Assembly (NCBI RefSeq): GCF_000219125.1 | Contig: NZ_AFGF01000079.1 | Location: 1 to 50,140 of the forward strand | DNA from: Acetonema longum DSM 6540 | GTDB lineage: Bacteria > Bacillota > Negativicutes > Sporomusales > Acetonemataceae | Reading direction: 5' to 3' | DNA: 50,140 nucleotides | In this document: piece by piece, positions 5,580 to 50,140 of the stretch | Layout: every line of letters begins with the position of its first letter | Position numbering within the stretch: position 1 is the stretch's first letter | Notes under the pieces: model-generated | Told to the model about the DNA's origin: nothing | The model's input: the letters and a program-made list of their open reading frames with translations, nothing else | Databases searched by the model: none | Position numbers and translations under genes: made by a program

Positions 5580-6206
5580 TTGCAGTATCTCTACATGTCG
5601 AGGATACTCAGAAACTTTTTACTGTTGCTTTTCATTCTTGCTGCTGTTACAGCCGGCAGTTCAGCCGATGCGGCTCCGGAAAAGATTCTGATCATGCCGA
5701 ATATCGGCTATGTAAAACTGCCGGGGGACATTAATCTCACCCCTCTTAAAAGCACTACCGGTCCGGCCTGGGATTTGGCAGGCCAAGACCAGGATAAGGG
5801 TAAGGCAGTCTCCCGCACCGCCCGCTTGACGGCCTCCGAATATCCACCCGCTAGTCTGGGAGTGGACAAGTCCCTGTTCACCACCACCGCCCGCCCGCAG
5901 AGCGGACAGGCCGCTCAGGTCGGAGATGCCGTCAAGCGGTATATGACCCGTTATCTGGCGCAAAACGGCGGCAAGTTGTTAAACTTTTATCCGACCGAGA
6001 CCGCCCCTATTGGCAACCGCCGGGCCTGGGCCTTTTCCATGCGGGCGGACCTGGGTTACGAAGGCGCCTCTTCGGTATTTATCAAAACCTATATGCTGGT
6101 TACCGACACTCGGGTGACCGAAGTGATGCTGGTCTGTCCCGACAGTGACCGTCGCTACTGGGGGCCGATGCTAAGCCGGGCCATGGCCACCTCCGGGGGC
6201 CGTTGA
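5580..6206 (+). CDS. Secreted protein of unknown function; stop codon inside a repeat
   Basis: 208 aa from a TTG at 5580, preceded 9 nt upstream by GGAAGGGGG; an internal ATG at 5595 is an alternative. The N terminus is a clear signal peptide: basic residues, then FLLLLFILAAVTAGSSADA with a probable cleavage after ADA. The rest is soluble, with no motif I can name. It contains KRYMTRYLAQNGGKLLNFYP and a C-terminal beta-rich part (VFIKTYMLVTDTRVTEVMLV). It probably acts outside the cytoplasmic membrane. The gene ends ...GGR-stop, where the last Arg codon and TGA lie in the sequence CCGTTGAAAAAGG, the left end of the window's repeat family. Function is unknown. Confidence 0.7.
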   Translation: MQYLYMSRILRNFLLLLFILAAVTAGSSADAAPEKILIMPNIGYVKLPGDINLTPLKSTTGPAWDLAGQDQDKGKAVSRTARLTASEYPPASLGVDKSLFTTTARPQSGQAAQVGDAVKRYMTRYLAQNGGKLLNFYPTETAPIGNRRAWAFSMRADLGYEGASSVFIKTYMLVTDTRVTEVMLVCPDSDRRYWGPMLSRAMATSGGR

Positions 6207-6226
6207 AAAAGGATCGTCTGCATCGC
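6200..6226. repeat. Modular hairpin repeat, copy 1 (left arm only)
   Basis: CCGTTGAAAAAGG followed by a CGTCTGCATCGC-like stretch matches the left arm of the fuller copies at 12305 and 13119. No matching right arm follows, so this looks like a decayed or partial copy. It overlaps the last two codons of the secreted-protein gene. A separate perfect inverted repeat AAACTTT-TAC-AAAGTTT follows at 6227-6243. Confidence 0.55.
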
Positions 6227-8603: not shown

Positions 8604-9488
8604 GTGAGCGACGCGAAGAAAAACAATTGGACGATCGGGGAAATTCTCCAGTGGACCAAGCAGTATTTCAGCGAAAAAGGCGTGGAGAATCCGCGCCTGG
8701 ATGCTGAAGTACTGCTTTCTGATATTGTAAAGCTGGATCGGCTGCGGCTGTACGTGAATTTTGATCAGCCCCTGCAGCAGCAGGAATTAGACCGTTACCG
8801 GGATTATGTGAAAAAACGGGTTATGCGGCTGCCGGTAGCTTATATTCTGGGACGCAAGGAGTTCATGGGACTGGAGTTTGCCGTAAATCCGGCGGTGCTC
8901 ATCCCACGGCCGGAAACTGAACTGCTGGTGGAAACCGTTTTAAAGCGGCTTGAAGGCTGTCAGAATCCTGCGATCTTAGACATTGGCACCGGCAGCGGCG
9001 CTATTATTCTCAGTGTCTTAAAACTATTGCCTGCGGCAACCGGTCTGGCCGTGGATATTTCTCCCCAGGCTTTGGCAGTGGCCCGGGACAACGCCGACCG
9101 GCTGGGAGTGGCGGAACGGGTAACCTTCCGGGAGAGCAATTTGCTGACGGCGCTGGGAGAACCGGATAAGCCAGCCGGAGGGTTTGACGCCATCCTGTCC
9201 AATCCTCCTTACATTAAAGATGAAGACATTCCGGTTCTCGCGCCGGAAGTGGGAAAGGAACCCCGAACCGCTTTAGCCGGCGGCAGGGATGGTCTGGATT
9301 TTTACCGCCTGATCCTGCAAGAGGCCGCCGGCTATCTGCAGCCGGAAGGCTTTCTGGCCTGGGAAATCGGAGCGGGTCAGTCGGAAGACATCAGCCGGCT
9401 TGCCCGGGAATCAGGCTGGACCGTGACCGACGTACTCAAGGACCTCGCCGGCATTGAGCGGGTTATGGTTCTAATAATTGGTAAATAA
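8604..9488 (+). CDS. prmC: Release factor glutamine methyltransferase (PrmC/HemK)
   Basis: 294 aa from a GTG at 8604, with GGAG at 8593-8596 inside the end of prfA. It transfers methyl from S-adenosylmethionine to the Gln of the GGQ motif in RF1 and RF2. The SAM-binding motif DIGTGSGAI follows an N-terminal helical domain, and the catalytic NPPY is at residues 200-203 (LSNPPYIKDED). The length is standard. It is coupled to prfA by position, the usual partnership. In Bacillus subtilis spoIIR follows nearby; here a hairpin repeat and ywlC follow instead. Confidence 0.95.
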   Translation: MSDAKKNNWTIGEILQWTKQYFSEKGVENPRLDAEVLLSDIVKLDRLRLYVNFDQPLQQQELDRYRDYVKKRVMRLPVAYILGRKEFMGLEFAVNPAVLIPRPETELLVETVLKRLEGCQNPAILDIGTGSGAIILSVLKLLPAATGLAVDISPQALAVARDNADRLGVAERVTFRESNLLTALGEPDKPAGGFDAILSNPPYIKDEDIPVLAPEVGKEPRTALAGGRDGLDFYRLILQEAAGYLQPEGFLAWEIGAGQSEDISRLARESGWTVTDVLKDLAGIERVMVLIIGK

Positions 9489-9512
9489 ATATTGAAAGGA
9501 AGATATAGGACT

Positions 9513-9611
9513 TTGTTGAAAAATTATCTGTGGTCTAGAATCTGGGACCGTCCAAAAAGGTTCAGATGCTAGGTAAGAACAACGCAGATGAGCCTTTTTC
9601 AACGGTCCCCC
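9513..9611. repeat. Modular hairpin repeat, copy 2 (short form)
   Basis: A long inverted repeat: 9543-9569 (GGGACCGTCCAAAAAGG and on to CAGATGC) pairs with 9584-9610 (GCAGATGAGCC to CAACGGTCCC), with only about 14 nt of loop. The left flank from 9513 (TTGTTGAAAAATTATCTG) is a diverged form of the flank seen at 46203 (GTTGCAAAACTCATCTG), so the element extends beyond the hairpin. The right end lies 9 nt from the start codon of ywlC. The rest of the prmC-ywlC gap holds nothing else I can identify. Confidence 0.85.
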
Positions 9612-9619
9612 TATGATAT

Positions 9620-10669
9620 ATGAAAACACGTTACATCTATGTTAACCCCCAAGACCCGGAGCAAAACGCCATTGATCTGGCGGCCGAAGTGATCCGCCGG
9701 GGCAGACTGGCGGCCTTTCCCACAGAAACAGTGTATGGATTGGGCGGCAACGGTCTTGACCCGGAAGCCGTCCGGAGCATTTTTGCCGCCAAAGGACGGC
9801 CCGGGGACAATCCGCTGATTTTACATATTGCCGCCACGGAGGAAGCCGAGCGGCTGGTCAAAACCGTTACACCCAATGCCGCCGCCTTGATGCAGCGCTT
9901 TTGGCCCGGCCCTCTCACCGTTGTGCTGGAGAAGTCAGACCTCGTTCCTTTGGTTGTAACCGGCGGATTGAATACTGTGGCTATCCGCCTGCCTGACTCC
10001 TTGGTGGCCAGGAGACTGATCAGCGCCGCCGGCGTTCCGGTTGCCGCCCCCAGTGCCAATACCTCCGGTCGCCCCAGTCCGGCCAATGCCAAAGCTGTAT
10101 TGAGCGACCTGGATGGTAAAATTGATATGGTATTGGATGCCGGTCCCTGCCGAATCGGCGTGGAATCCACTGTGGTAGACTGCACCACGCCGGTGCCTAC
10201 ACTCTTAAGACCGGGCGGTATTACTCTGGAAATGCTGCTGGAGGTACTTGGAGAGGTAGAAGCTGCCCCGGCTCTGTCGGGCTTACATACCACAGTTCCC
10301 CGCTCTCCCGGCATGAAATACACTCATTATGCCCCCAGTGCTCCCATGAGGCTGGTGGAAGCTACGGATTCGGCGATGCCGGTTATCCTGGAGCGGTACA
10401 TTGCCGAGGCTCAGGCAACAGGACAGGTGGTGGGGGCTTTGGTCTCCGGTGAGACAGCGGAACGTTTGCCTGACGGGGTGGTCAGCGCCGTCTATGGACC
10501 CCGCAGCCGGCCGGATATGATTGCAGCCCGGCTGTATGACTGCCTGCGTCAATTTGACAATACCCCGGTGGATGTGATCTTTGCCGAAGGCATTGCCGAC
10601 AAGGGACTGGGACTGGCAGTCATGAACCGCATGCGCAAAGCCGCAGGCTATGACATTATTCGGGAGTAA
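9620..10669 (+). CDS. ywlC: Threonylcarbamoyl-AMP synthase (Sua5/YwlC type)
   Basis: 349 aa. It makes threonylcarbamoyl-AMP from threonine, bicarbonate and ATP for the t6A modification at position 37 of ANN-decoding tRNAs. The YrdC domain occupies about residues 15-205 (FPTETVYGLGGNG, AKGRPGDNPLILH, APSANTSGRPSP). The linker SPGMKYTHYAPSAPM (near residue 233) and a C-terminal Sua5 domain follow, so this is the long two-domain form. The ATG at 9620 lies only 9 nt after the right end of a hairpin repeat and no good ribosome site precedes it; ACGGTCCCC is the only sequence in place. This suggests insertion of the repeat displaced the original leader. Confidence 0.93.
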   Translation: MKTRYIYVNPQDPEQNAIDLAAEVIRRGRLAAFPTETVYGLGGNGLDPEAVRSIFAAKGRPGDNPLILHIAATEEAERLVKTVTPNAAALMQRFWPGPLTVVLEKSDLVPLVVTGGLNTVAIRLPDSLVARRLISAAGVPVAAPSANTSGRPSPANAKAVLSDLDGKIDMVLDAGPCRIGVESTVVDCTTPVPTLLRPGGITLEMLLEVLGEVEAAPALSGLHTTVPRSPGMKYTHYAPSAPMRLVEATDSAMPVILERYIAEAQATGQVVGALVSGETAERLPDGVVSAVYGPRSRPDMIAARLYDCLRQFDNTPVDVIFAEGIADKGLGLAVMNRMRKAAGYDIIRE

Positions 10670-10718
10670 ATTCTGATACAGCCTTATCTCACATATATAT
10701 TGAAGTGAGGTGAGCAAG

Positions 10719-11318
10719 ATGAGCTTATTGGAATTGGTCGTTTTGAGCATGGCACTGGGAACGGATTTATTTTCGGTTGCTGTGCCCATTGGGATGCAGC
10801 GGATCCGCCGACGGATTATATTTATCGCGGCGATCGTTTTTGCCGTATTTCACATCATCATGATTCTGATCGGCTATCATGCCGGGCACTGGCTGGGAGG
10901 GTTCGTGGAACACTACGGAACCTATCACGCCGATAATCCGGTGATCGTCAGCTATGTGGCTCACGTGACCGGCGCCCTGGTGCTGATGGCCCTGGGTGCC
11001 CAGATGCTTTGGTGCGTGGTGAAGGGAGACGAAGAGAGCCTGTGCGGACCCCGGTCCCTGGAAGGAATGACGCTGCTGGCCATTGCCGCCGGTGTCAGTG
11101 TGGATGCCCTGGCCGCAGGATTCAGCATGGGCATGATGGATGTTAATTTGTGGATATTAAGTTTGGTTCTGGGTATCGTGATTTTCTCGATTGCGGTGGC
11201 GGGTTTGGGTTTGGGCCGGCGCATTGGCCGATTCCTGGGGGATAAAGCCGGACTGATAGGCGGCTTGGTCCTGTTTATTCTGGGGGCGCACTTGCTGGTT
11301 TCTCTTTTTTATGAATAG
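10719..11318 (+). CDS. mntP: Manganese efflux pump MntP
   Basis: 199 aa from the ATG at 10719, preceded by GTGAGGTGA. MntP exports Mn(II) across the cytoplasmic membrane. It has six hydrophobic segments in two repeats, with the paired acidic motifs expected for the family: ALGTDLFSVAVPIG in TM1 and GVSVDALAAGFSMG in the second repeat. The first motif has TD where many homologues have MD. The syntenic gene in B. subtilis is ywlD. No manganese riboswitch-like leader is apparent in the 49-nt gap after ywlC, so it is probably cotranscribed with its neighbours. Confidence 0.9.
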   Translation: MSLLELVVLSMALGTDLFSVAVPIGMQRIRRRIIFIAAIVFAVFHIIMILIGYHAGHWLGGFVEHYGTYHADNPVIVSYVAHVTGALVLMALGAQMLWCVVKGDEESLCGPRSLEGMTLLAIAAGVSVDALAAGFSMGMMDVNLWILSLVLGIVIFSIAVAGLGLGRRIGRFLGDKAGLIGGLVLFILGAHLLVSLFYE

Positions 11319-11346
11319 GAAATACATAGATTAAGGGGTGGTATCC

Positions 11347-11820
11347 ATGCTGCGCATTTTACTGGTTTGCACCGGCAATACCTGCCGCAGCCCCATGGCT
11401 GAGGCTGTTCTGCGGGACAAGATCAGAGCTGCCGGGCAGGAAGACAACATTAAAGTGCTGTCGGCCGGGATTGCCGCCGGCGGTGAATATGCCGCTGCGG
11501 ATGAGGCTGTTGCCGTCATGCAGGAAAGAAATCTGGATTTGAGCCGGCACCTTTCCCGGCAGGTGACCCCGGAATGGATCGGCGCTGCAGACTTGATTCT
11601 GACTATGACCCAAGGGCATAAGGCCAATTTACTGCGATTGGCGCCCTCTGCCAGGGATAAAACCTATACCCTGGCTGAATTTTCCGGCGAGGGATGGGAT
11701 GTTCCTGATCCGGTGGGACAATCCCTGGCAGTGTACCGGGCTTGCGCCTGTCAAATCGAAAGCTTGCTGGATAAGGCATGGGAAAAGATTATGGAGCGGG
11801 CAGGAAAACCACATCAATAG
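11347..11820 (+). CDS. ywlE: Low-molecular-weight protein phosphatase (YwlE family)
   Basis: 157 aa from the ATG at 11347, with AAGGGG 8 nt upstream. The phosphatase loop CTGNTCRS begins at Cys8 (nucleophile) with Arg14, and the general-acid Asp is in VPDPVGQ near residue 119. In B. subtilis the counterpart removes phosphate from arginine residues of proteins and so opposes the McsB kinase; a Thr in the loop (CTGNT), as here, is associated with that arginine preference. It lies in the conserved ywlC-mntP-ywlE-rpiB-ywlG order. Confidence 0.92.
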   Translation: MLRILLVCTGNTCRSPMAEAVLRDKIRAAGQEDNIKVLSAGIAAGGEYAAADEAVAVMQERNLDLSRHLSRQVTPEWIGAADLILTMTQGHKANLLRLAPSARDKTYTLAEFSGEGWDVPDPVGQSLAVYRACACQIESLLDKAWEKIMERAGKPHQ

Positions 11821-11871
11821 GAAGAAATTTTTTTAGGACAAGCCACATTATATTGCTTGGAGGAGTGTCGA

Positions 11872-12312
11872 ATGCTGGCTATTGGCAGCGATCATGGAGG
11901 GTTCCGGCTTAAGGAAGCGATTAAGGAATATCTTGCAGCCAACCAAATAGGATTTTGTGATTTTGGCACACATTCCGTCGACTCGGTGGATTATCCCGAT
12001 ATTGCCAAAACCGTGGCTCAGGCTGTAGCGGCCGGCGAATGCGAACGGGGGATTCTCATTTGCGGCACCGGCATTGGCATCTCTATTGCCGCTAATAAGA
12101 TGAAAGGCATCCGGGCGGCGCTCTGTCATGACGTTTTTTCCGCAAAAATGTCCCGGGAACATAATGACGCCAACATCCTGGCCATGGGCGAGCGGGTGAT
12201 AGGACAGGGTCTGGCGCTGATGATCGTGGAAACCTGGCTGAAAAGCGAATTCACCGGTGGCCGGCACGAGAACCGGGTTTGTAAAATCACCGACATGGAA
12301 CAGAACCGTTGA
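11872..12312 (+). CDS. rpiB: Ribose-5-phosphate isomerase B; stop codon inside a repeat
   Basis: 146 aa from the ATG at 11872 (GGAGG nearby upstream). It interconverts ribose 5-phosphate and ribulose 5-phosphate in the non-oxidative pentose phosphate pathway. Visible features are the N-terminal GSDHGGFRLKE, the catalytic Cys64 in CGTGIGISIAANK, and LGGRH-like TGGRHENRV near the end. The C-terminal residues ...EQNR-stop are encoded by AACCGTTGA, the left end of the repeat that fills the next gap, so the native terminus was probably altered by the repeat. It is followed by ywlG. Confidence 0.95.
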   Translation: MLAIGSDHGGFRLKEAIKEYLAANQIGFCDFGTHSVDSVDYPDIAKTVAQAVAAGECERGILICGTGIGISIAANKMKGIRAALCHDVFSAKMSREHNDANILAMGERVIGQGLALMIVETWLKSEFTGGRHENRVCKITDMEQNR

Positions 12313-12546
12313 AAAAGGCCCATCTGCGTCGTTACTCCTGCGGGCGGGCGTTCGACGTACCTGCCAACGTACAATCTCACGCCCGTCCTCGTCGTGCTGC
12401 ATCAGAATTTGTGACTTTTCGGGAGATAGGCAGTAGCGAGTGATTTCTCATAAGCCGAAAAGTCCCCTAAATTCCTTCAGTACGGCAACGCAGGCGTTGC
12501 TCTTACCTAGCATCTGAACCTTTTTGAACGGTTCTCGGTTCGAGGC
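12305..12546. repeat. Modular hairpin repeat, copy 3 (long form, about 240 bp)
   Basis: The outer arms are 12305-12327 (ACCGTTGAAAAAGGCCCATC...) and 12510-12535 (GCATCTGAACCTTTTTGAACGG...), which pair with each other. Inside are at least three more inverted repeats: CGGGCGGGCGTT near 12340 with the ACGCCCGTCC stretch near 12385, ACTTTTCGGG near 12414 with CCGAAAAGT near 12460, and GCAACGC-AG-GCGTTGC near 12485. The right flank GGTTCGAGGCT matches the flanks of other copies. It overlaps the last codons of rpiB and fills the gap to ywlG. Confidence 0.88.
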
Positions 12547-12577
12547 TTAAGAAAGTGCAGTGAAAGAGGGGTTTAGC

Positions 12578-13126
12578 ATGGAATTGGACAATCTTAACCA
12601 ACAGGCGGCGGCTATTGCGCAGGAACTGATTGCTTTGGCCGGTCTGGAACCGGGGCAGATCCTGGTGGTGGGCTGCAGCACCAGCGAGGTGCGGGGAGAA
12701 AAAATCGGCACTGCCGGCTCTGATCAGGTGGCGGCGTCGATTTTAGACAATCTGATAACCGCCTGCCGGGAGCGGGGCTTATTTTTGGCAATACAGTGCT
12801 GCGAGCATTTAAATCGCGCCCTGGTGGTGGAGAAGGACATTCTTTCACACTACCCCCTGGAGCCGGTCAGCGTGGTGCCTGTGCCTCATGCCGGCGGTGC
12901 CTTGGCAGCACAGGCGATAAAATGTTTCAGACAGCCGGTGGTGGTGGAGACGATCCAGGCCCATGCCGGGCTGGATATCGGCAGTACTCTGATCGGCATG
13001 CATCTAAAACGGGTGGCAGTGCCCCTGCGACTGACGGAGAAATATCTGGGCCAGGCTTATGTGACTGCCGCCAAAACCCGTCCGAAGTTAATCGGCGGCG
13101 CACGAGCCATCTACGGTGACCGTTGA
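12578..13126 (+). CDS. ywlG: DUF436 / TIGR01440 family protein (YwlG); stop codon inside a repeat
   Basis: 182 aa from the ATG at 12578, with AGAGGGG 7 nt upstream. The family is recognised by VVGCSTSEVRGEKIGTAGS (about residues 27-45) and VPVPHAGGALA near residue 105. Its biochemical role is not established; members are small soluble proteins and the gene is regularly placed between rpiB and glyA. The final ...YGDR-stop is read from GACCGTTGA at the left end of the next repeat, as in rpiB. The conserved Cys in VGCSTSE may be functional, but this is a guess. Confidence 0.88.
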   Translation: MELDNLNQQAAAIAQELIALAGLEPGQILVVGCSTSEVRGEKIGTAGSDQVAASILDNLITACRERGLFLAIQCCEHLNRALVVEKDILSHYPLEPVSVVPVPHAGGALAAQAIKCFRQPVVVETIQAHAGLDIGSTLIGMHLKRVAVPLRLTEKYLGQAYVTAAKTRPKLIGGARAIYGDR

Positions 13127-13326
13127 AAAAGGCCCATCTGAGTCACTTCAGCCTCCTGCGGACTCATTCAGAAAACATCTCTTTTCGGTTTCGTATGCAG
13201 TGGTCTATTTTGCTGTGACTACACCGAAAAGTGATTTGTTTTCTTCCAGTACGCAACGCAGGCGTTGCTCTTACCTAGCATCCGGATCTTTTTGAACGGT
13301 CCCTGTTTCGAGGCTGCAGATGGGTT
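13119..13326. repeat. Modular hairpin repeat, copy 4 (long form, about 205 bp)
   Basis: The left arm 13119-13140 (ACCGTTGAAAAAGGCCCATC...) pairs with 13278-13303 (GCATCCGGATCTTTTTGAAC...). The interior differs from copy 3: it carries the alternative module CACTTCAGCCTCCTGCGG, then a CTCTTTTCGG/CCGAAAAG hairpin pair around 13182 and 13228, and the same GCAACGC-AG-GCGTTGC hairpin near 13255. The right flank GTTTCGAGGCTGCAGATGGG matches (as reverse complement) the left flank at 46203. It covers most of the ywlG-glyA gap. Confidence 0.88.
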
Positions 13327-13376
13327 TTACAACAGGATACTAGATAATCTAATGGGTAAAAAGAGGGGGATAACAC

Positions 13377-14615
13377 ATGTCAACACTTGCTATCTTTGAC
13401 CCGGAAGTGGCTAAAGCAATCGAACTGGAGCTTTCCCGCCAGCAGAACAAATTGGAACTGATTGCATCGGAAAACTTTGTTTCCAAAGCCGTATTAGAGG
13501 CCCAAGGTTCGGTGCTTACCAATAAATATGCCGAAGGCTATCCCGGCAACCGTTACTACGGCGGCTGCGAGCATGTGGATATCGTAGAAAAGCTGGCCAT
13601 CGAACGAGCCAAGAAGCTGTTTGGGGCCGAGCATGTCAACGTGCAGCCTCACTCCGGCGCCCAGGCCAATACGGCGGTCTATTTTGCCTTTCTGAATCCC
13701 GGCGATACCATTTTAGGTATGAATCTGGCCCATGGCGGACACCTGACCCACGGCAGCCCGGTGAACATTTCCGGTAAATATTTTAACATCATTCCCTACG
13801 GTGTAACCTCTGATTCCCACCGGATTGATTATGATGAGGTACGCCGTCTGGCTCTCGAACATAAGCCCAAAATGATCGTAGCCGGCGCCAGCGCGTATCC
13901 CCGGCGGATTGAATTCGATAAACTGGGGGCCATCGCTAAAGAGGCCGGATCTATGCTGATGGTGGATATGGCTCACATCGCCGGCTTGGTAGCGGCCGGA
14001 CTGCATCCGAGCCCGGTGCCTTACGCCGATATTGTCACTACGACTACCCATAAGACACTGCGGGGACCCCGCGGCGGAATGATCCTCTGCCGGGAAGAGT
14101 ATGCCAAAGCCATCGACAAGGCTATTTTTCCCGGCATCCAGGGCGGTCCTCTGATGCATATCATCGCTGCTAAGGCCGTGGCGCTGAAGGAGGCTCTGAG
14201 CGGAGAATTCCAAGAGTATCAGCAGCAGATTGTGAGCAATGCCCAGGCCCTGGCCGCTAAACTGCTGGAGGCAGGCTTCGACCTGGTATCCGGCGGCACC
14301 GACAATCATCTGATGCTGGTCGATGTACGCAAGCAGAATTTGACGGGTAAACAGGCGGAAAAAATCCTGGATGAAGCCGGCGTTACTGTCAATAAAAACG
14401 CCATTCCTTTTGATCCGGCCAGCCCTTTTGTCACCAGCGGCATTCGTATCGGCACGGCGGCAGTGACCTCCCGTGGAATGAAGCAGCAGGATATGGCGGT
14501 CATTGGTGAAATTATTTCCCTGGCCCTGCATAACCCGGAAAATGAGATCATCCACGCCAAAGCCGGAAAAATGGTCCGGGAGCTGTGCGGCAAATATCCC
14601 CTGTATGCCGGTTAA
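13377..14615 (+). CDS. glyA: Serine hydroxymethyltransferase
   Basis: 412 aa, ATG at 13377 with AAGAGGGGGA upstream. It converts serine and tetrahydrofolate into glycine and 5,10-methylene-tetrahydrofolate, the main one-carbon source of the cell, with pyridoxal phosphate bound as a Schiff base to Lys226 in the motif [14 protein letters not shown]. Other family landmarks are [31 protein letters not shown] and [14 protein letters not shown]. The length is standard. In an anaerobe of acetogenic type it would connect to the C1 pathway. It is followed closely by upp, as in B. subtilis. Confidence 0.98.
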
Positions 14616-15756: not shown

Positions 15757-15772
15757 AATATATAAAACTTTG

Positions 15773-15830
15773 AAAAGGGCATTGCAAGTCTTGGTTTAAC
15801 ACAGGATTGCAATGCCCTTTTGGTATTTTT
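15773..15830 (+). terminator. Intrinsic terminator after comEB
   Basis: A perfect 15-bp stem (15773-15787 AAAAGGGCATTGCAA with 15807-15821) and a 19-nt loop, followed by TGGTATTTTT. It closes the glyA-upp-comEB transcript and forms the left border of the hydrogenase island. The As and Ts in the stem would also allow function on the minus strand. Confidence 0.85.
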
Positions 15831-16230
15831 AATATTTTGCCGCTTTCTTTTTGAAATATCGAAAAATTATTGACCAATCGGATCAAATATCCGCTGGAAT
15901 GTGAAATATTTTACACAGTATTATTTATGCCATTCTAATATTATGCCAATTTGCAATCAACCACTATTTCATCCTTTCACAATACGATTCGGATGAGGAT
16001 TGTGATCGTTTAACACTTATTCATATAGAACTGTCACAATTGAATATTAATACAATAAAATGATTACATAACACATGAAGGACTAACCAGTTTAATCCTT
16101 GTAAAACAAGACTTCGTTCGCGATTGGACGTGGTTTGAGTCTTGCATAAATAATAAATGTTTATTACAATGGAAACAACGTGAGTTGCAATTTGCACTGT
16201 ATTATAGTACATAAGGGGGCAAGTTAACAC
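15831..16230 (+). promoter_or_regulatory. 400-bp AT-rich regulatory region of the hydrogenase operon
   Basis: No gene is supported here. Three inverted repeats stand out. TCACAAT (15977-15983) and ATTGTGA (15999-16005) are perfect, spaced 15 nt, and a third TCACAAT lies at 16034-16040. CAAGACT (16107-16113) pairs with AGTCTTG (16138-16144), and the second half overlaps the -35 box of the promoter at 16142. Such placement suggests regulator binding that responds to growth conditions; the TGTGA half-sites resemble CRP/FNR-family sites, but that assignment is inference. Confidence 0.5.
16142..16170 (+). promoter_or_regulatory. Sigma-A promoter of the hydrogenase operon
   Basis: TTGCAT (16142-16147), 17 nt, TACAAT (16165-16170). 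The start would be near 16177, leaving a leader of about 54 nt before the hyaA ATG at 16231. A ribosome site AAGGGGGCAAG lies at 16212-16222. Confidence 0.6.
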
Positions 16231-17334: not shown

Positions 17335-19211
17335 AACGAGTGGTAGTTGATCCCGTTACCCGGATTGAGGGACACCTTCGGGTGGAAATAAAAGTAGACG
17401 AAGCCAGCGGCAAGGTTCAGGATGCTCTGTCCAGCGGCACTGCCTGGCGCGGCATCGAATTGATTGTAAAAGACCGGGATCCCCGTGATGTCTGGGCATA
17501 TGTCCAACGCATCTGCGGCGTGTGTACAACCGTCCATTCCCTGGCATCGCTGCGGGCGGTGGAAGACGCCCTGGGCATTGAGATCCCGAAAAATGCCAAC
17601 TACATCCGCAATATTATGGCTGCCAGTCAGAATATCCACGATCACCTGGTTCATTTTTACCACTTGCATGCCCTGGACTGGGTCAGCCCGGTGGAAGCCC
17701 TTAAGGCCGATCCGGCGGCTGTCGCTGCGCTGCAAAACGCCGTATTGGAGAAATACCGCCTGCCGCTGGCCGGTCCGGTGGAATTGGATACCGACGCCTA
17801 TCCCAAGGACTTTCCCAAGGCAACCACCTTATATTTTAAAACCATCCAGGACAAAGTCAGGAAAATCGTCGAGAGCGGCCAACTTGGCATCTTCGCCGGC
17901 CAGTGGTGGGACCATCCCGACTATAACCTCTTGCCGCCGGAAGTTCACCTCATGGCTGTGGCCCATTATCTGAACATGCTGGATCGCCAGCGGGAACTGG
18001 TGGTCTCTCATGTCGTCTTCGGCGGGAAGAATCCTCATCCGCATTTCATCGTCGGCGGTATGCCTTCTTCCATTTCCATGAATGATATGAATGCTCCGAT
18101 CAACACCGAGCGGTTGGCGGTCGTCGATACATCGATCAATTTGACCCTCAACCTGGTCAATTATTTCTACCTGCCCGACCTGCTGGCCATTGGTGACATT
18201 TACGTAAAAAAAGGCTACGTGGACGGCGGCGGTTTGGCCAAGGAACGGGTGCTGGGCTACGGTGACTTTCCTGACGAGCCCTACACCGGCATCACCAACG
18301 GTGATTTTCATAAAAAACTTCTGCTGCGCAGCAACGGCGTCGTCGAAAATTTCGGTCAAGGCCTGGCCAAAGCCGAGTACTTCAACCTGGAAGGCAAGGA
18401 TTATGCCGACCCGGCCATTCTCGCAGAAGGCGTCGAGCATTCCTGGTACACTTATCCCGAACCCGGCCAGGACGTCCATCCCTGGGCCGGAGCGACCGAG
18501 CCCCAATATACCGCCGGAAAAGAATGGAAGAATCTTGACGAACAAGGCAAGTACTCCTGGATCAAGACGCCAAAATGGCGGGGAAAAACGGCCGAAGTCG
18601 GTCCTTTGGCCCGTTACATCATTATCTATACCAAGGTGAAAAAAGGCCTGATTGAGCCGACCTGGGCTGAAAAAATGATTGTTGACCAAATCGAAGCCGT
18701 ATCCAAAGTCCTTAACGCGCCGCCTGAGGTATGGATGCCGACCACCGTCGGACGAACGGCTGTCCGCGGCCTGGAGGCCCAGCTCTGGGCTTACATCAAC
18801 AAATATTACTTCGACAAACTTATCAAAAACATCAAGAGCGGTGACACTGCCGTGGCCAATACCGCTAAATGGGAACCAGCCACCTGGTCCAAAGAGGCCA
18901 GAGGTATTGGCCTCCACGAAGCCCCCCGGGGCGCCCTCGGACACTGGATTGTTATCAAAGACGGAAAAACCGCCAACTATCAGGCCATCGTCCCTACCAC
19001 CTGGAACGCCTGCCCTCGGGACGACCAAGCCGGTTATGGGGCCTATGAAGCCAGTATGATCGATACCAAAATTAAAATCGCCGACAAACCCCTGGAAGTT
19101 CTAAAAGCTATTCGTTCTTTTGACCCATGTCTCGCCTGTGCGACTCACCTGTATGACGTTCAGGGCAACAAGCTTAGTATTGTGCACACTGATCCCTACA
19201 TAAAGCTATAG
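17331..19211 (+). CDS. hyaB: [NiFe] hydrogenase large subunit
   Basis: 626 aa. It holds the NiFe(CN)2CO active site. Nickel ligands are Cys62 and Cys65 in RICGVCTTVHS and Cys600 and Cys603 in DPCLACATH. His606 ends the mature protein; the 20 residues after it (beginning LYDVQGNK) would be removed by the maturation protease encoded at 21344. The conserved N terminus VVDPVTRIEGHLRVE is present. It is exported together with the small subunit, having no signal of its own. Start ATG overlaps the hyaA stop. The 11-nt gap to the cytochrome b gene, with a GGAGGG site, indicates one operon. Confidence 0.97.
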   Translation: MKRVVVDPVTRIEGHLRVEIKVDEASGKVQDALSSGTAWRGIELIVKDRDPRDVWAYVQRICGVCTTVHSLASLRAVEDALGIEIPKNANYIRNIMAASQNIHDHLVHFYHLHALDWVSPVEALKADPAAVAALQNAVLEKYRLPLAGPVELDTDAYPKDFPKATTLYFKTIQDKVRKIVESGQLGIFAGQWWDHPDYNLLPPEVHLMAVAHYLNMLDRQRELVVSHVVFGGKNPHPHFIVGGMPSSISMNDMNAPINTERLAVVDTSINLTLNLVNYFYLPDLLAIGDIYVKKGYVDGGGLAKERVLGYGDFPDEPYTGITNGDFHKKLLLRSNGVVENFGQGLAKAEYFNLEGKDYADPAILAEGVEHSWYTYPEPGQDVHPWAGATEPQYTAGKEWKNLDEQGKYSWIKTPKWRGKTAEVGPLARYIIIYTKVKKGLIEPTWAEKMIVDQIEAVSKVLNAPPEVWMPTTVGRTAVRGLEAQLWAYINKYYFDKLIKNIKSGDTAVANTAKWEPATWSKEARGIGLHEAPRGALGHWIVIKDGKTANYQAIVPTTWNACPRDDQAGYGAYEASMIDTKIKIADKPLEVLKAIRSFDPCLACATHLYDVQGNKLSIVHTDPYIKL

Positions 19212-39185: not shown

Positions 39186-40175
39186 ATGCGGAGCTTTGCG
39201 TTGGCGATCGTCAGTGTGGCATTCCTGGTAATTATTGTGCCGCTTTTCATCATTATTTTTTTCAGCGGTCCGGCCTGGGTACAGGCTGAAAGACCGGCGC
39301 CGAAGAAGGAGGATGGAATGACGGTTCGGGTCTATCTGCATGAAACAGATGAGATCAAAGCTATGAACCTGGAAGAGTATGTAAAGGGAGTAGTCGCGGC
39401 TGAAATGCCGGCCGAGTTTCATCCGGAAGCCTTGAAGGCCCAGGCAGTGGCAGCCCGGACCTATGCGGTGCAAAACATGGTCTCTATGGGCGGAGCGGGC
39501 TTGGCTGACCGTCCCGGGGCTGATGTTACCACCGATCCGCGTCTGGGCCAGGGATGGGCCGATGAGGCTAAGATGAAAGCCCGTTGGGGCTTCCTGGGCT
39601 TTCAGAAGTATTGGCCCAAGATCAATAAAGCAGTGGAAGAAACCCAGGGCATGATTCTGACCTACCAGGGGAAACCCATCCAGGCCGTGTTTCATTCTAC
39701 CAGCAGTGAGCGCACCGCCAGCGCCAAAGAGGTGTGGGGGACGGACCACCCCTATCTGCAAAGCGTCCCCAGCGCTTGGGATAAGGATGCCCCCCGCTAT
39801 AGCGAAAACCGGCTGATTCCCTGGGAGGACATTGACAAACGCCTGGGCACTGACACTAAAACCGTAACCGTCAGCCAAAGCGACGCCAAAAATATTGCCC
39901 AGGTACTATCATCCACCGAGTCCGGGCGAGTGGATCGGGTGCGGATCGGAGAGACTACTTTCAGCGGCCAGGCTTTACGGGAAAAGCTGCAATTGCGCTC
40001 AACCCGGTTCAGCATTCAGCCAAAGCCGGCAGGTCTGGAATTCGTTACCCAAGGCTACGGTCACGGCGTGGGACTGAGCCAGTACGGCGCTAACGGCATG
40101 GCCAAAGACGGCAGAACATTTAATGAAATATTGACCTATTTCTATACGGGTGTTGTAATTGAAAAGTTACATTGA
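39186..40175 (+). CDS. spoIID: Stage II sporulation protein D (lytic transglycosylase)
   Basis: 329 aa from the ATG at 39186, with CGGAGGGA at 39174-39181; the ATG at 39171 overlaps that site. SpoIID cuts glycan strands during engulfment of the forespore by the mother cell. A single N-terminal membrane segment (about residues 5-25) precedes the catalytic region EEYVKGVVAAEMPAEFHPEA, which contains the catalytic Glu, then KAQAVAARTYA and the C-terminal YGHGVGLSQYGANGMA. Its position after murA is conserved in spore formers. It is preceded by a terminator and a sigma-E-like promoter. Confidence 0.95.
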   Translation: MRSFALAIVSVAFLVIIVPLFIIIFFSGPAWVQAERPAPKKEDGMTVRVYLHETDEIKAMNLEEYVKGVVAAEMPAEFHPEALKAQAVAARTYAVQNMVSMGGAGLADRPGADVTTDPRLGQGWADEAKMKARWGFLGFQKYWPKINKAVEETQGMILTYQGKPIQAVFHSTSSERTASAKEVWGTDHPYLQSVPSAWDKDAPRYSENRLIPWEDIDKRLGTDTKTVTVSQSDAKNIAQVLSSTESGRVDRVRIGETTFSGQALREKLQLRSTRFSIQPKPAGLEFVTQGYGHGVGLSQYGANGMAKDGRTFNEILTYFYTGVVIEKLH

Positions 40176-40183
40176 TATCCGCT

Positions 40184-40276
40184 CAGAAAGGTTCAGATGC
40201 TAGGTGAGAGAGACGCTTTCTGACTGAACCCGCCCGTGGGAGGCTGAAGTGACGCAGACGAGCCTTTTTCAACGGT
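40184..40276. repeat. Modular hairpin repeat, copy 5
   Basis: The left part AAAGGTTCAGATGC (40187-40200) and right arm 40253-40276 (GCAGACGAGCCTTTTTCAAC...) match the family; the outer left CCGTT is missing. The interior GGGAGGCTGAAGTGACG is the reverse complement of the CACTTCAGCCTCC module of copies 4 and 9, so this copy is in the opposite orientation. It begins 8 nt after the spoIID stop and ends 4 nt before the candidate promoter of the spoIIQ-like gene. Confidence 0.8.
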
Positions 40277-40280
40277 CTAT

Positions 40281-41132: not shown

Positions 41133-41139
41133 GTAAATA

Positions 41140-41250
41140 AAAATATCTTCAGCCTCGAATATGAGGGTCGTTCAAAAAGGTTCAGATGCTGGGAAGGCCG
41201 GGGACGCGCGTGAGACTGTACAACGCAGATGAGCCTTTTTCAACGACCTC
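41140..41250. repeat. Modular hairpin repeat, copy 6
   Basis: Arms 41163-41189 (GAGGGTCGTTCAAAAAGG...) and 41225-41250 (GCAGATGAGCCTTTTTCAAC...) pair. The outermost bases are GGTCGTT and AACGACC instead of GACCGTT and AACGGTC; both arms changed together, so pairing is kept. The left flank CAGCCTCGAATATGA (from about 41151) matches that of copy 7. It lies between the spoIIQ terminator and a sigma-E-like promoter. Confidence 0.85.
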
Positions 41251-45617: not shown

Positions 45618-46196
45618 GTGAACCAGGCAAAAATAAGATTGACTCTGACGGTCAGCCTGCTGATACTTCTCTTTCCCGCCTTGTGTGGTGCTACATCTTT
45701 ATGGGTGGATAAAGGCACTCTGTTTACTGACCGCAAGGCTCACGCCGTGGGGGACACCATCACCATTATTGTCAGCGAAAGCATGACGGCTCTGCGGAGT
45801 GGTGATGCCGCGAATTCCAAAGAATCCAGCATGTCCATGTCTGGTACGGGCGATTTGGATTTCCTGCCTGGTTTTGGCGCCAATTCAAAGGACAGCTTCG
45901 CCACCAAAGGCTCCATTTCCAACAAGAACGCCGTTATGGCCAGACTCACCGTCCAGGTTGTCGAAATTAAGCCTAATGGCAATCTGGTCTTGAGCGGCAA
46001 GCAAACTATCAAGCAGCACGGTGAAGAACAGCGAATCCTGATCAACGGCACGGTGCGGCCGGAAGATGTTACTGCCGATAATACGGTTTTATCCACTTAT
46101 GTAGCTAACGCCGAAATCAATATTGAAGGGTCCGGCCCCATTGCCAGAAAGCAGAAGCAGGGAGTGCTGACCCAACTCTTTAATTTCTTATTCTAG
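45618..46196 (+). CDS. flgH: Flagellar L-ring protein FlgH
   Basis: 192 aa from the GTG at 45618, chosen because GAGGTGA (45606-45612) is correctly spaced for it and overlaps the earlier GTG at 45609. FlgH forms the outer-membrane L ring. The conserved C-terminal half is clear: DTITIIVSESMTA, the FLPGFG stretch, then RLTVQVVEIKPNGNLVLSG and RPEDVTADNTVLSTYVANAEI. The N terminus is hydrophobic (LTVSLLILLFPALCGATSLW). The only Cys is in PALCG, which is not a good lipobox, so normal lipidation of FlgH is doubtful here. Confidence 0.93.
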   Translation: MNQAKIRLTLTVSLLILLFPALCGATSLWVDKGTLFTDRKAHAVGDTITIIVSESMTALRSGDAANSKESSMSMSGTGDLDFLPGFGANSKDSFATKGSISNKNAVMARLTVQVVEIKPNGNLVLSGKQTIKQHGEEQRILINGTVRPEDVTADNTVLSTYVANAEINIEGSGPIARKQKQGVLTQLFNFLF

Positions 46197-46197
46197 G

Positions 46198-46360
46198 AAT
46201 CTGTTGCAAAACTCATCTGCAGCCTCGAATCTGAGACCGTTCAAAAAGGTTCAGGTGCAAGGCGTGACGAGGACGGGCGTAAGACTGTGCGTTCATAGGG
46301 TACGTCGAACGCCCGCCCGCAGGAACAACGAAGCAGATGGGCCTTTTTCAACGGTCTCTT
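46198..46360. repeat. Modular hairpin repeat, copy 7, inside the flagellar operon
   Basis: Arms 46234-46258 (AGACCGTTCAAAAAGG...) and 46333-46357 (GCAGATGGGCCTTTTTCAAC...) pair. The interior has the GACGGGCGTAAGACTGTGCG and TACGTCGAACGCCCGCCCGC module found inverted in copy 3. The left flank TTGCAAAACTCATCTGCAG is complete here and begins about 8 nt after the flgH stop. flgH and flgI are usually nearly adjacent, so this copy looks inserted in the operon. Confidence 0.88.
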
Positions 46361-46382: not shown

Positions 46383-47489
46383 ATGCGTAAAGTATTATGT
46401 TTATCGCTGATCGCGATGCTGGCAGTCAGCCTGACTGCCGCACTGGCTGCGCCGGTAAATACCCGGATCAAGGATCTGGCCAAAGTGCAGGGGGTCAGGA
46501 GCAATCAGCTGGTTGGTTATGGACTGGTGGTGGGTTTGGCTGGGACCGGCGACAGCGATAAGGCGGAATATACCATTCAGTCTATTGCCAGTATGCTGAA
46601 GTCTTTCGGCATCACTGCTCCCATGGATAACCTTCGGCCGAAAAATATGGCGGCTGTTATGATTACGGCTGAATTACCGCCTTTTGCCAAGCCGGGAGAT
46701 ACCATTGACATTGCCGTGTCTTCCATCGGAGATGCCAAGAGTCTCCAGGGCGGGACTCTTTTACAGGCGCCTCTGAAGGCTGCCAATGGACAAGTTTATG
46801 CTGTCGCCCAGGGAGCCTTGTCTATCGGGGGATTTTCCGTGAGTGGCGGTGGTTCCCGTACCCAAAAGAATTTTCCCACGGTTGGCTCGGTTCCCTCCGG
46901 AGCGATTGTAGAGCAGGAAGTTCCCAATCAAATCGGCGCCAACGGTACGATTGCCCTAAGTCTCCGTCAACCGGACTTTACCACGGCCAACCGGATCGCC
47001 GAAGCGGTGGAAAGTCGTTTTGGACCGATATCCCAAGCCCGGGATCCGGGAACAGTAGCTGTAACAATACCTAACTATTACCAGCAAAATGTAGTAGGAT
47101 TTGTTGCTGCCCTTGAAGAATTATATGTAAGACCGGACAGCGTCGCTAAAGTTGTGATTAATGAACGGACTGGCACAGTTGTTATGGGGTCCCATGTGGC
47201 TGTCAGCGAAGTGGCGGTGGCCCAGGGCAGTCTGAATGTCCGCATTGTCAACCGTCCGGAGGTTTCCCAGCCAGCTCCTTTTTCAGACGGCGAAACAGTA
47301 GTCACTGAGCAGCAGCAGATAACTGTCTCCGACAAACCGGCCAGTTTTATAGTTCTTCCCTCAACGGCCAATGTGGGAGATGTGGTAAATGCCTTGAATG
47401 CTGTGGGCGCCACTTCCCGGGATGTAATCGCGATTTTGCAGGCGATGAAAGCAGCCGGTGCGTTGCATGCTGAAATTCAAATTATGTAA
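46383..47489 (+). CDS. flgI: Flagellar P-ring protein FlgI
   Basis: 368 aa with a signal peptide (VLCLSLIAMLAVSLTAALA, cleavage near residue 22). It forms the periplasmic P ring around the rod. Family features are RIKDLAKVQGVRSNQLVGYG and LVVGLAGTGDSDKAEYT near the N terminus, then KNMAAVMITAELPPFAKPGD, and at the C terminus VVNALNAVGATSRDVIAILQ and AMKAAGALHAEIQIM. Length is standard. ATG at 46383 with a GGAGGCGAGACG site, 22 nt after the repeat. Confidence 0.97.
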   Translation: MRKVLCLSLIAMLAVSLTAALAAPVNTRIKDLAKVQGVRSNQLVGYGLVVGLAGTGDSDKAEYTIQSIASMLKSFGITAPMDNLRPKNMAAVMITAELPPFAKPGDTIDIAVSSIGDAKSLQGGTLLQAPLKAANGQVYAVAQGALSIGGFSVSGGGSRTQKNFPTVGSVPSGAIVEQEVPNQIGANGTIALSLRQPDFTTANRIAEAVESRFGPISQARDPGTVAVTIPNYYQQNVVGFVAALEELYVRPDSVAKVVINERTGTVVMGSHVAVSEVAVAQGSLNVRIVNRPEVSQPAPFSDGETVVTEQQQITVSDKPASFIVLPSTANVGDVVNALNAVGATSRDVIAILQAMKAAGALHAEIQIM

Positions 47490-47600
47490 AGGCTGCTGCA
47501 AAATGCCCATCTGCGTTGTTGCTCCTGCGGTTACTTGCTTGCATACCACTCCGTATGCGGCGCGGCGTATCCTCGTCGCGCCTGCAGCAACCTCGCAGAG
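47490..47600. repeat. Diverged hairpin repeat, copy 8, between flgI and flgJ
   Basis: GGCTGCTGCA (47490-47499) is inverted at 47583-47592 with one mismatch. ATGCCCATCTGCGTTGTTGC (47503-47522) and TCCTGCGG match the left-arm interior of the main family, but the outer CCGTTGAAAAAGG is replaced by GCTGCTGCAAAA. The centre CGTATGCGGCGCGG/CGTCGCGCC forms a further stem. It starts immediately after the flgI stop codon. Confidence 0.7.
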
Positions 47601-49658: not shown

Positions 49659-49973
49659 ATGTCCCGCAACCAAAAGAGGCTTTTGATCGTCAGTATTCTG
49701 ATGATCATCTTGGTTAGCGCCTGGGTCTCAGCTGCCGGCGTTCTGGTGGACCAACGCAGTGTACTGTCCGGCAAAGTGCATGCTGTTGTCGGTCCTGGCT
49801 CTGCCGTAAAGGAAGGCGATGTCCTGGTTGTCGTCAATACCATTGTCGGGCCTTCACCCGCCGTGCGGGCTACCGTAGACGGTGTAGTGAGAGAAATCCT
49901 CGTCAAGCCGGGCCAAGATGTCCGGCAGGGGACGATTGCAGTCCGCATAGAGCCCAGTAAAGGGAACCGTTGA
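49659..49973 (+). CDS. Small membrane-anchored protein with biotinyl/lipoyl-like domain; stop inside a repeat
   Basis: 104 aa, ATG at 49659, GGGGAGG 8 nt upstream. A membrane segment (about residues 8-27, LLIVSILMIILVSAWVSAAG) is followed by a compact beta domain that reads like the barrel-sandwich of HlyD/biotinyl-lipoyl proteins: VHAVVGPGSAVKEGDVLVVV, then VRATVDGVVREILVKPGQDV and GTIAVRIEP. No modifiable MKM or DKA lysine motif is present. It lacks the coiled-coil hairpin of efflux adaptors. Role unknown; perhaps an envelope scaffold. The end ...KGNR-stop is read from AACCGTTGA, the left end of repeat copy 9. Confidence 0.75.
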   Translation: MSRNQKRLLIVSILMIILVSAWVSAAGVLVDQRSVLSGKVHAVVGPGSAVKEGDVLVVVNTIVGPSPAVRATVDGVVREILVKPGQDVRQGTIAVRIEPSKGNR

Positions 49974-50140
49974 AGAAGGCCCATCTGCATCACTTCAGCC
50001 TCCTGCGGGCGGGCTCAGTCAGAAGCGCCTCTTTTCGGATTCTAGGCAATAGATATTTTGCTGTGACTACGCCGAAAAGCGACCTACTTTCTTCCTGATC
50101 TCACGATGCTTCGCATCTTTCTAGTATCGACGTACCCGCG
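49966..50140. repeat. Modular hairpin repeat, copy 9 (cut by the window end)
   Basis: The left arm AACCGTTGAAGAAGGCCCAT (49966-49985) is followed by CACTTCAGCCTCCTGCGGGC, the same module as copy 4. A CTCTTTTCGG/CCGAAAAG hairpin pair (about 50029 and 50072) and GCTGTGACTACGCCGAAAAG, close to the copy 4 interior, come next. The expected right arm is not reached before the window ends. Confidence 0.8.

Follow-up and report, generated by a model that had tools for sequence, protein, structure and literature searches.

MITE-like hairpin repeats at gene ends in Acetonema longum and other bacteria, and their candidate link to IS1182-type transposases

Introduction

What are the long hairpins that lie scattered between the genes of a 50,140-nt stretch of the Acetonema longum DSM 6540 genome (the window), and how did they come to be there? 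A sequence-only reading of this DNA had counted at least seven clear copies and two diverged or partial ones, had proposed that their arms pair around modular interiors, and had likened them to REP/BIME repeats or to MITEs mobilised in trans. It added that none encodes a protein, that the window holds no transposase and that it knew of no family described with this sequence. We have followed the repeats through the A. longum genome and through other bacteria, and weigh here what they may be and what may have moved them.

Results

The repeats of the window are real. Allowing up to three mismatches, the left-arm pattern gives eight matches in the window and none in 100 shuffles, and the right-arm pattern gives six, with none in shuffles. 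Arm matches and model hits define the following features.

6199-6221, plus strand: solo left arm, three mismatches
9505-9543, minus strand: right outer end of the 9544 copy
9544-9609, minus strand: copy of the 58-nt class, barely more than two arms (arms and model hit)
12302-12535, plus strand: copy of the 226-nt class (arm matches and model hits)
12310-12312, plus strand: TGA in the left arm, ending ORF 11857-12312, the ribose/galactose isomerase gene upstream
13116-13303, plus strand: copy of the 180-nt class, with left arm (13119-13141), CACTTCAGCCTCCTGCGG segment, module and right arm (13278-13299)
13124-13126, plus strand: TGA in the left arm, the stop of the DUF436 gene (ORF 12560-13126)
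13304-13343, plus strand: right outer end of the 13116 copy, CTAG tip at 13340-13343
40175-40279, minus strand: copy of the 97-nt class (arms and model hit)
41139-41163, minus strand: degraded right outer end of the 41164 copy
41164-41250, minus strand: copy of the 79-nt class (arms and model hit)
46193-46232, minus strand: right outer end of the 46233 copy, CTAG tip at 46193-46196
46233-46358, minus strand: copy of the 118-nt class, with the top model score of the window, 102.9 bits
47489-47594, plus strand: diverged copy (weak model hit, E 1.5e-5); left arm of GCTGCAAAA type, right arm degraded
49966-50140, plus strand: copy with left arm and module, reaching the window end

Of the seven copies previously called clear, six run from arm to arm and the seventh, at 49966, carries a left arm and a module up to the window end; of the two called diverged or partial, one (47489-47594) is a weak model hit and the other (6199-6221) a left arm only. 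The start points formerly given as 9513, 41140 and 46198 fall in the right outer end, which had not been recognised as part of the element. The 12302 copy consists, in order, of the left arm (12305-12327), the core hairpin, a CTTTTCGG module, a GCAACGC hairpin and the right arm (12510-12531); the model hit on its plus strand stops at 12421 (12302-12421), and that on the minus strand covers 12302-12535. The modular make-up of the interiors is borne out by length classes, the arm-to-arm copies listed falling near 58-67, 79-84, 97, 112-120, 174-183, 226-233 and 333-343 nt. The window also contains an inverted repeat unrelated to this family, at 15763-15831, with 34-nt arms that are 76% complementary and lie 1 nt apart.

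The repeats are not confined to the window. A search of the whole A. longum genome (4.32 Mb) returned 165 left-arm matches (87 + 78) with up to three mismatches, and none for the reversed pattern. Arm pairings shorter than 400 nt number 124 of 133, and the flanks of these 124 arm-paired listings, many of which are one copy read in both orientations, share a left end of the form YTAG followed by GRGACCGTTG. Beyond the right arm the listings share a tail, CAGATTCGAGGCYGCAGATGAGTTTTGCAACAGAYTYC, frequently succeeded by YTAG; this tail is matched at 22 or more of its 34 positions in 37 of 58 oriented copies, against none of 58 shuffled flanks. At its tip the tail repeats the left end in inverse form, so that the terminal inverted repeats lie outside the two known arms. 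Seen in full, the left end (YTAG, then GAGACCGTTGAAAAA) and the outer right end are imperfect mirror images. At loci from other, named genomes the ends read CAGGCTGTTGAAAAA and TTTTTCAACA.CCTG, and the outer right end could be placed in 38 copies. One copy (L012) adjoins the next head to tail. The 19 copies of the 118-nt class have a median pairwise identity of 0.87 (range 0.70-0.97). Two further loci deserve mention. On the minus strand of L079, near 6020, a GGGGACGGTTCTCTTG sequence similar to one associated with Y1 genes comes after a left arm and core, and may represent one mobile repeat inside or beside another. At L128, one of the 21 modules found that resemble CTTTTCGG/CCGAAAAG has no arm nearby (minus strand, near 18895) and may be a separate repeat.

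The proposed pairing of the arms is accompanied by compensatory base changes. In an alignment of fixed orientation, obtained by cutting 63 copies to 43 below 90% identity, standard pairs occupy 92.1% of 1241 cells, as opposed to 23-42% in slid controls. Double-changed cells amount to 103, compared with a mean of 38.1 in shuffles that keep relatedness, and pairs with double changes to 12 of 29, compared with 8.6 in the same kind of shuffles. These scores cover the outer arms, and RNAalifold run on the 43 sequences returns the outer arms only. The full core folds with lower energy than its shuffles (z < -2) in 42 of 43 sequences, the part between the arms in 18 of 43. Two mismatches, G10.G121 and TC/CT at columns 22-23 versus 108-109, are invariant or nearly so, as might be expected of a protein-binding feature.

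The two TGA codons listed above qualify the statement that no copy encodes a protein: the 12302 and 13116 copies supply the last codons and the stop of the preceding genes, and another copy is read in frame in a NagA-like gene described below. Both upstream proteins are complete by profile, the isomerase being matched to 138/138 with the match ending seven residues before the stop, and the DUF436 protein to 171/171, ending three residues before it. Throughout the genome, in gene calls made with a simple custom script, 32 of the 58 oriented copies have their left arm at most 7 nt from the stop of an upstream gene on the same strand, whereas the expectation is 3.9% (208/5362) for intergenic YTAR sites and 2.5% for random intergenic positions. 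The 32 stops consist of 12 TGA codons in CCGTTGA, 10 TAG codons of the end and 10 at other offsets; a TGA in the arm ends any frame that enters it, and placement in this class is meaningful only if the protein is complete, which was profile-checked for two of the 32. Excluding the TGA class, gene-end placement is seen in 20 of 58 copies. Stops of convergent genes fall in the outer right end of eight copies out of 58. At the named-genome loci, where ORFs open for at least 600 nt were required, 19 of 65 copies are placed at gene ends, against one of 543 shifted control positions. Tolerance alone does not easily explain this placement, because 96% of intergenic YTAR sites lie elsewhere. Gene ends would thus seem to be targeted by the elements rather than only tolerated.

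Several observations speak for mobility. The 4-mers just outside the two ends are identical in 13 of the 38 named-genome copies, mostly from Deltaproteobacteria, where shuffling gives a mean of 3.7 and a maximum of 10 in 5000; they include TTAG, CTAA, TTTA, TAAA and ATAG and are a transposition footprint. The corresponding figure for A. longum is one in 15 copies with a placed outer end (shuffled mean 0.67, not significant); the copies of this genome are therefore either older or have had their outer ends mis-set. One A. longum copy lies inside an open NagA-like frame, which has about 46 extra residues relative to its G001 homologue, and the insert is absent from 17 of 17 aligned homologues (24 fetched). 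Judged from the protein alignment rather than from a DNA empty site, this appears to be a clear gain. Wider pairs of ends bracketing ORFs of at least 180 aa number 87; in 10 hand-picked ones the longest ORFs look, by eye, like host proteins, and none of these 10 was recognised as a copy carrying its own transposase. The 165 arm matches, the mirror-image ends, the 4-bp target repeats at named-genome loci and the NagA gain uphold the earlier view of non-autonomous repeats probably mobilised in trans, and we infer from them that the hairpin elements transpose.

The family reaches well beyond A. longum. With up to two mismatches, arm matches occur in 15 of 100 genomes, A. longum included, and these counts are floors for the other genomes, the arm pattern being tuned to A. 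longum; two of the hits (L043 and L044) lack a right arm. Scanning one genome per species for the exact right arm returned 70 matches on 69 stretches, mostly from Deltaproteobacteria but also from Rokubacteria, Methylomirabilota, Bdellovibrionales, a MAG labelled Cyanobacteria, Sporomusa sp. KB1 and a Firmicutes MAG. A left arm is recognisable upstream in 60 of the 70, and the commonest end-to-end length is 115-117 nt. A covariance model, applied to at most 11 candidates per genome, was run on 299 sampled genomes of the phylum; 37 of them have matches at E <= 0.001, the E-values being rough. Across these searches, an architecture of about 116 nt is shared by Deltaproteobacteria, Rokubacteria and other Bacillota. 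For a MITE, an interior conserved across phyla is unusual, and counts against that reading.

Some loci depart from this plan. Four model hits (L337, L339, L340 and L341) have quite different arms around a similar GTAC apex; in the first three the differing arms still look self-complementary by eye around a GTAC-type apex, and the four perhaps belong to a wider superfamily with swapped arms. In Syntrophaceae UBA4054 (L141, L148, L152, L199, L200 and L201) the outer arms are intact and the apex hairpin is replaced by a CTTCGACAGGCTCAGG-type palindromic repeat. None of the plasmids and phages searched has the A. longum element, none of the plasmids the Deltaproteobacterial one, and none of the viruses scanned with the exact long pattern gave a match. 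A YTAR-CAGGCTGTTGAAAAA end is present on five viral contigs, one of which (L219) apparently carries a short unrelated element of 162 nt.

What might move these elements? The statement that the window holds no transposase stands for the Y1, DUF772 and DDE_5 families, which have no match on contig C79. Partner-like ends are found in two other genomes, G015 and G013. In the former, a DUF772 element, apparently with an internal deletion, has CTAG followed by GAATCCGTTG on one side and CAACAGACTC followed by CTAG on the other; its ends are almost identical to the A. longum outer right end. The latter gives eight equal-scoring matches to a relative of the G015 element, at 68% identity. The four of these loci that were fetched hold an IS of 1.8 kb, identical in all, with CTAG and ends of this type at its borders, which were set by comparing copies, independently of the end motif; with 328.7 bits, the ORF of this IS (525 aa) exceeds the NCBIfam cut-off for IS1182, 270 bits. 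Over its first 20 nt, the outer-right-end consensus of 19 A. longum copies agrees with the G015 ends at 18 positions and with the G013 ends at 17, the best of 1408 control CTAG sites in A. longum stretches scoring 16; the left end scores 16 and 15 of 20, respectively. Scores of other IS1182-type ends range from 6 to 16 of 20. Compared with the Deltaproteobacterial end, IS1182 ends scored in carrier genomes agree at no more than 15 of 20 positions (L291).

A. longum itself yielded neither a match to a transposase fragment of the G015/G013 type, in an assembly of 295 contigs from which a repeat could be missing, nor an autonomous partner sharing the ends of the elements; the end lying behind its open IS1182 frame (532 aa) differs from them. 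Among the 28 genomes behind the named loci, none has a DUF772 element with exactly the CAGGCTGTTGAAAAA end, and 19 have no DUF772 match at all. Some MITEs are known to have outlived their partners. From these end comparisons the candidate link to IS1182 appears good for the A. longum right end and moderate elsewhere; the suggestion of a MITE-like nature is supported, with ends of IS1182 type.

Discussion

On balance, and with moderate confidence, we take the repeats to be non-autonomous, MITE-like mobile hairpins, probably moved by IS1182-type transposases. The element would be one long hairpin with IS1182-type outer inverted repeats (YTAR, then [GC]AG-CYGTTG-AAAA), at which the DDE transposase of an IS1182-family element, acting in trans now or formerly, most likely cuts. 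It would have inserted at YTAR sites, leaving a 4-bp repeat. Its insertions frequently sit at gene 3' ends, where the left end carries the stop (the TAG of the target, or the TGA in CCGTTGA). The pairing of arm with arm would be under selection, with the conserved mismatches kept, and the interior would gain and lose smaller hairpin modules. We infer that an IS1182 transposase moves the elements and that the hairpin is needed for the movement. One could envision a transposase that favours hairpins beside a YTAR, a site that can contain a stop codon; such a preference would yield the gene-end pattern.

The main rival reading makes the elements mobile bidirectional terminators or 3'-end RNA elements, retained because the hairpin and its flanking A-run and T-run terminate transcription or shield mRNA ends; mobility would be secondary. 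An A-run (columns 11-15) and a T-run (columns 116-120) do flank the hairpin almost invariantly in the 43 sequences, and the placement and orientation bias of the 58 A. longum copies, with 32 left ends at a stop and eight convergent stops, would suit such a function. So would a wobble asymmetry, which may reflect selection acting on one of the two RNA strands: A.C on the plus strand, which is G.U on the other strand, outnumbers G.T by 32 to 6 in alignment A1 and by 47 to 12 in 44 A. longum copies. However, the bias concerns the strand opposite the upstream gene, a single column contributes 8 of the 32 and 16 of the 47, and the sequences are related. The T-run, moreover, is absent from some relatives, which have TTTCT or arms of other sequence, and a simple terminator scan, limited to loops of 3-8 nt, lists no site inside the six arm-to-arm copies of the window; one site lies inside the 49966 copy and one touches the solo arm at 6199. 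We consider a terminator role of this kind possible but less likely.

It is tempting to speculate on a hairpin-for-hairpin exchange operating across phyla. An IS1182-type transposase would swap the element for the stem-loop at a gene end, the element thereby providing the gene with a new stop codon and a new 3' hairpin, and the same reaction on inner hairpins would produce the modular interiors. The foreign apex palindromes of a Syntrophaceae genome would arise likewise. This proposal is tentative, and we hold it to be somewhat unlikely.

It is also worth considering that the mover might belong to another DDE family with YTAR targets, an IS5 subgroup or IS701, since some members of both have YTAR targets and similar ends. 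We find this doubtful. IS701 (PF13546) has no match in A. longum, and its few matches in relatives (4 of 29 genomes) do not have these ends around them, so that this family was rejected; the IS5 groups were covered through DUF772 only.

That the repeats are old and fixed, with neither present function nor mobility and with arms kept alike by gene conversion, strikes us as improbable. The median identity of 0.87 among the 19 copies of the 118-nt class and the undetectable target repeats of A. longum (1/15) would agree with such a history; the compensatory changes across phyla do not, nor does the NagA insertion, present only in A. longum among 18 aligned sequences.

A REP/BIME-type repeat moved by a Y1 (RAYT) transposase, as the sequence-only reading had suggested, is very improbable, and the RAYT mobiliser was rejected: A. 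longum does have three Y1_Tnp matches, and REPs also show imperfect hairpins with conserved mismatches, but no good arm match lies beside any of the three loci (one 6-mismatch right-arm match beside L059 is the sole arm-like sequence in flanks fetched up to about 1.5 kb, L060 being truncated where its contig stops), a different sequence is present at two of them, and Y1 enzymes are not known to leave 4-bp direct repeats. That different sequence, of GGGGACGG / CCGTCCCC type, flanks the Y1 RAYT-like genes at L058 and L059 (contigs C134 and C76) and is perhaps their own repeat.

How do the mobile hairpins compare with known systems? The earlier statement that no described family has this sequence is in keeping with Rfam 15, which gives no match above the gathering score in the window or in 16 other loci (the best permissive match within 9000-14000 scores 20.6 bits against a cut-off of 40), and with the accessible literature searched, in which no published description of the hairpin family was found. 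Small non-autonomous hairpin repeats are a kind already known. What is unusual is the cross-phylum breadth with conserved architecture, the capping of gene ends and the IS1182 connection.

REP/BIME sequences are reported as numerous intergenic palindromes located mostly downstream of genes (PMC3733652), and in these respects resemble the present family. REPs, however, measure 20-40 bp and carry a GTAG or CGTC tag, whereas the hairpin copies listed span 58-343 nt from arm to arm, and inspection of their flanks by eye revealed neither tag at the hairpin foot. Palindromic, intergenic multicopy families have also been reported from Geobacter and Pelobacter, in the Deltaproteobacteria (PMC2700814, PMC2996986, PMC3543383). 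Some of them may be the same family as ours; the comparison was with their descriptions, the alignments being supplementary, and none of the legends consulted gives these arms. RUP of the pneumococcus is reported in 108 intergenic copies, with terminal inverted repeats resembling those of IS630-Spn1 (PMC2229807); it was attributed through its IS-like ends, by the same logic as applied here. It differs in its TA-containing sites and its tie to IS630, and neither gene-end capping nor a cross-phylum hairpin figures in the part of its description compared here (PMC2229807).

A further comparison is with IS1182 itself. The outer ends of the hairpin element and its CTAG target resemble those of two IS1182-type elements from related genomes; in contrast to these, it lacks a transposase gene, and the hairpin spans the whole element. 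IS1272, a member of IS1182, is reported to insert in hairpins (PMC5678879), and the hairpins entered by IS1272 and TnSha1 include several confirmed transcription terminators (PMC4923244); as reported, this targeting of hairpins and terminators fits the placement of our elements at gene ends. By the same accounts IS1272 replaces or deletes its target stem-loop and leaves no target repeat (PMC5678879, PMC4923244), unlike the 4-bp footprint of the named-genome hairpin copies. The present findings describe abundant, apparently unnamed intergenic hairpins of anaerobic bacteria with a probable tie to a specific transposase family, and show insertions by which genes are capped at their stop codon. 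If the IS1182 link is true, hairpin targeting of the IS1272 type becomes testable on hundreds of natural insertions, and a model for a repeat family of the phylum becomes available for annotation.
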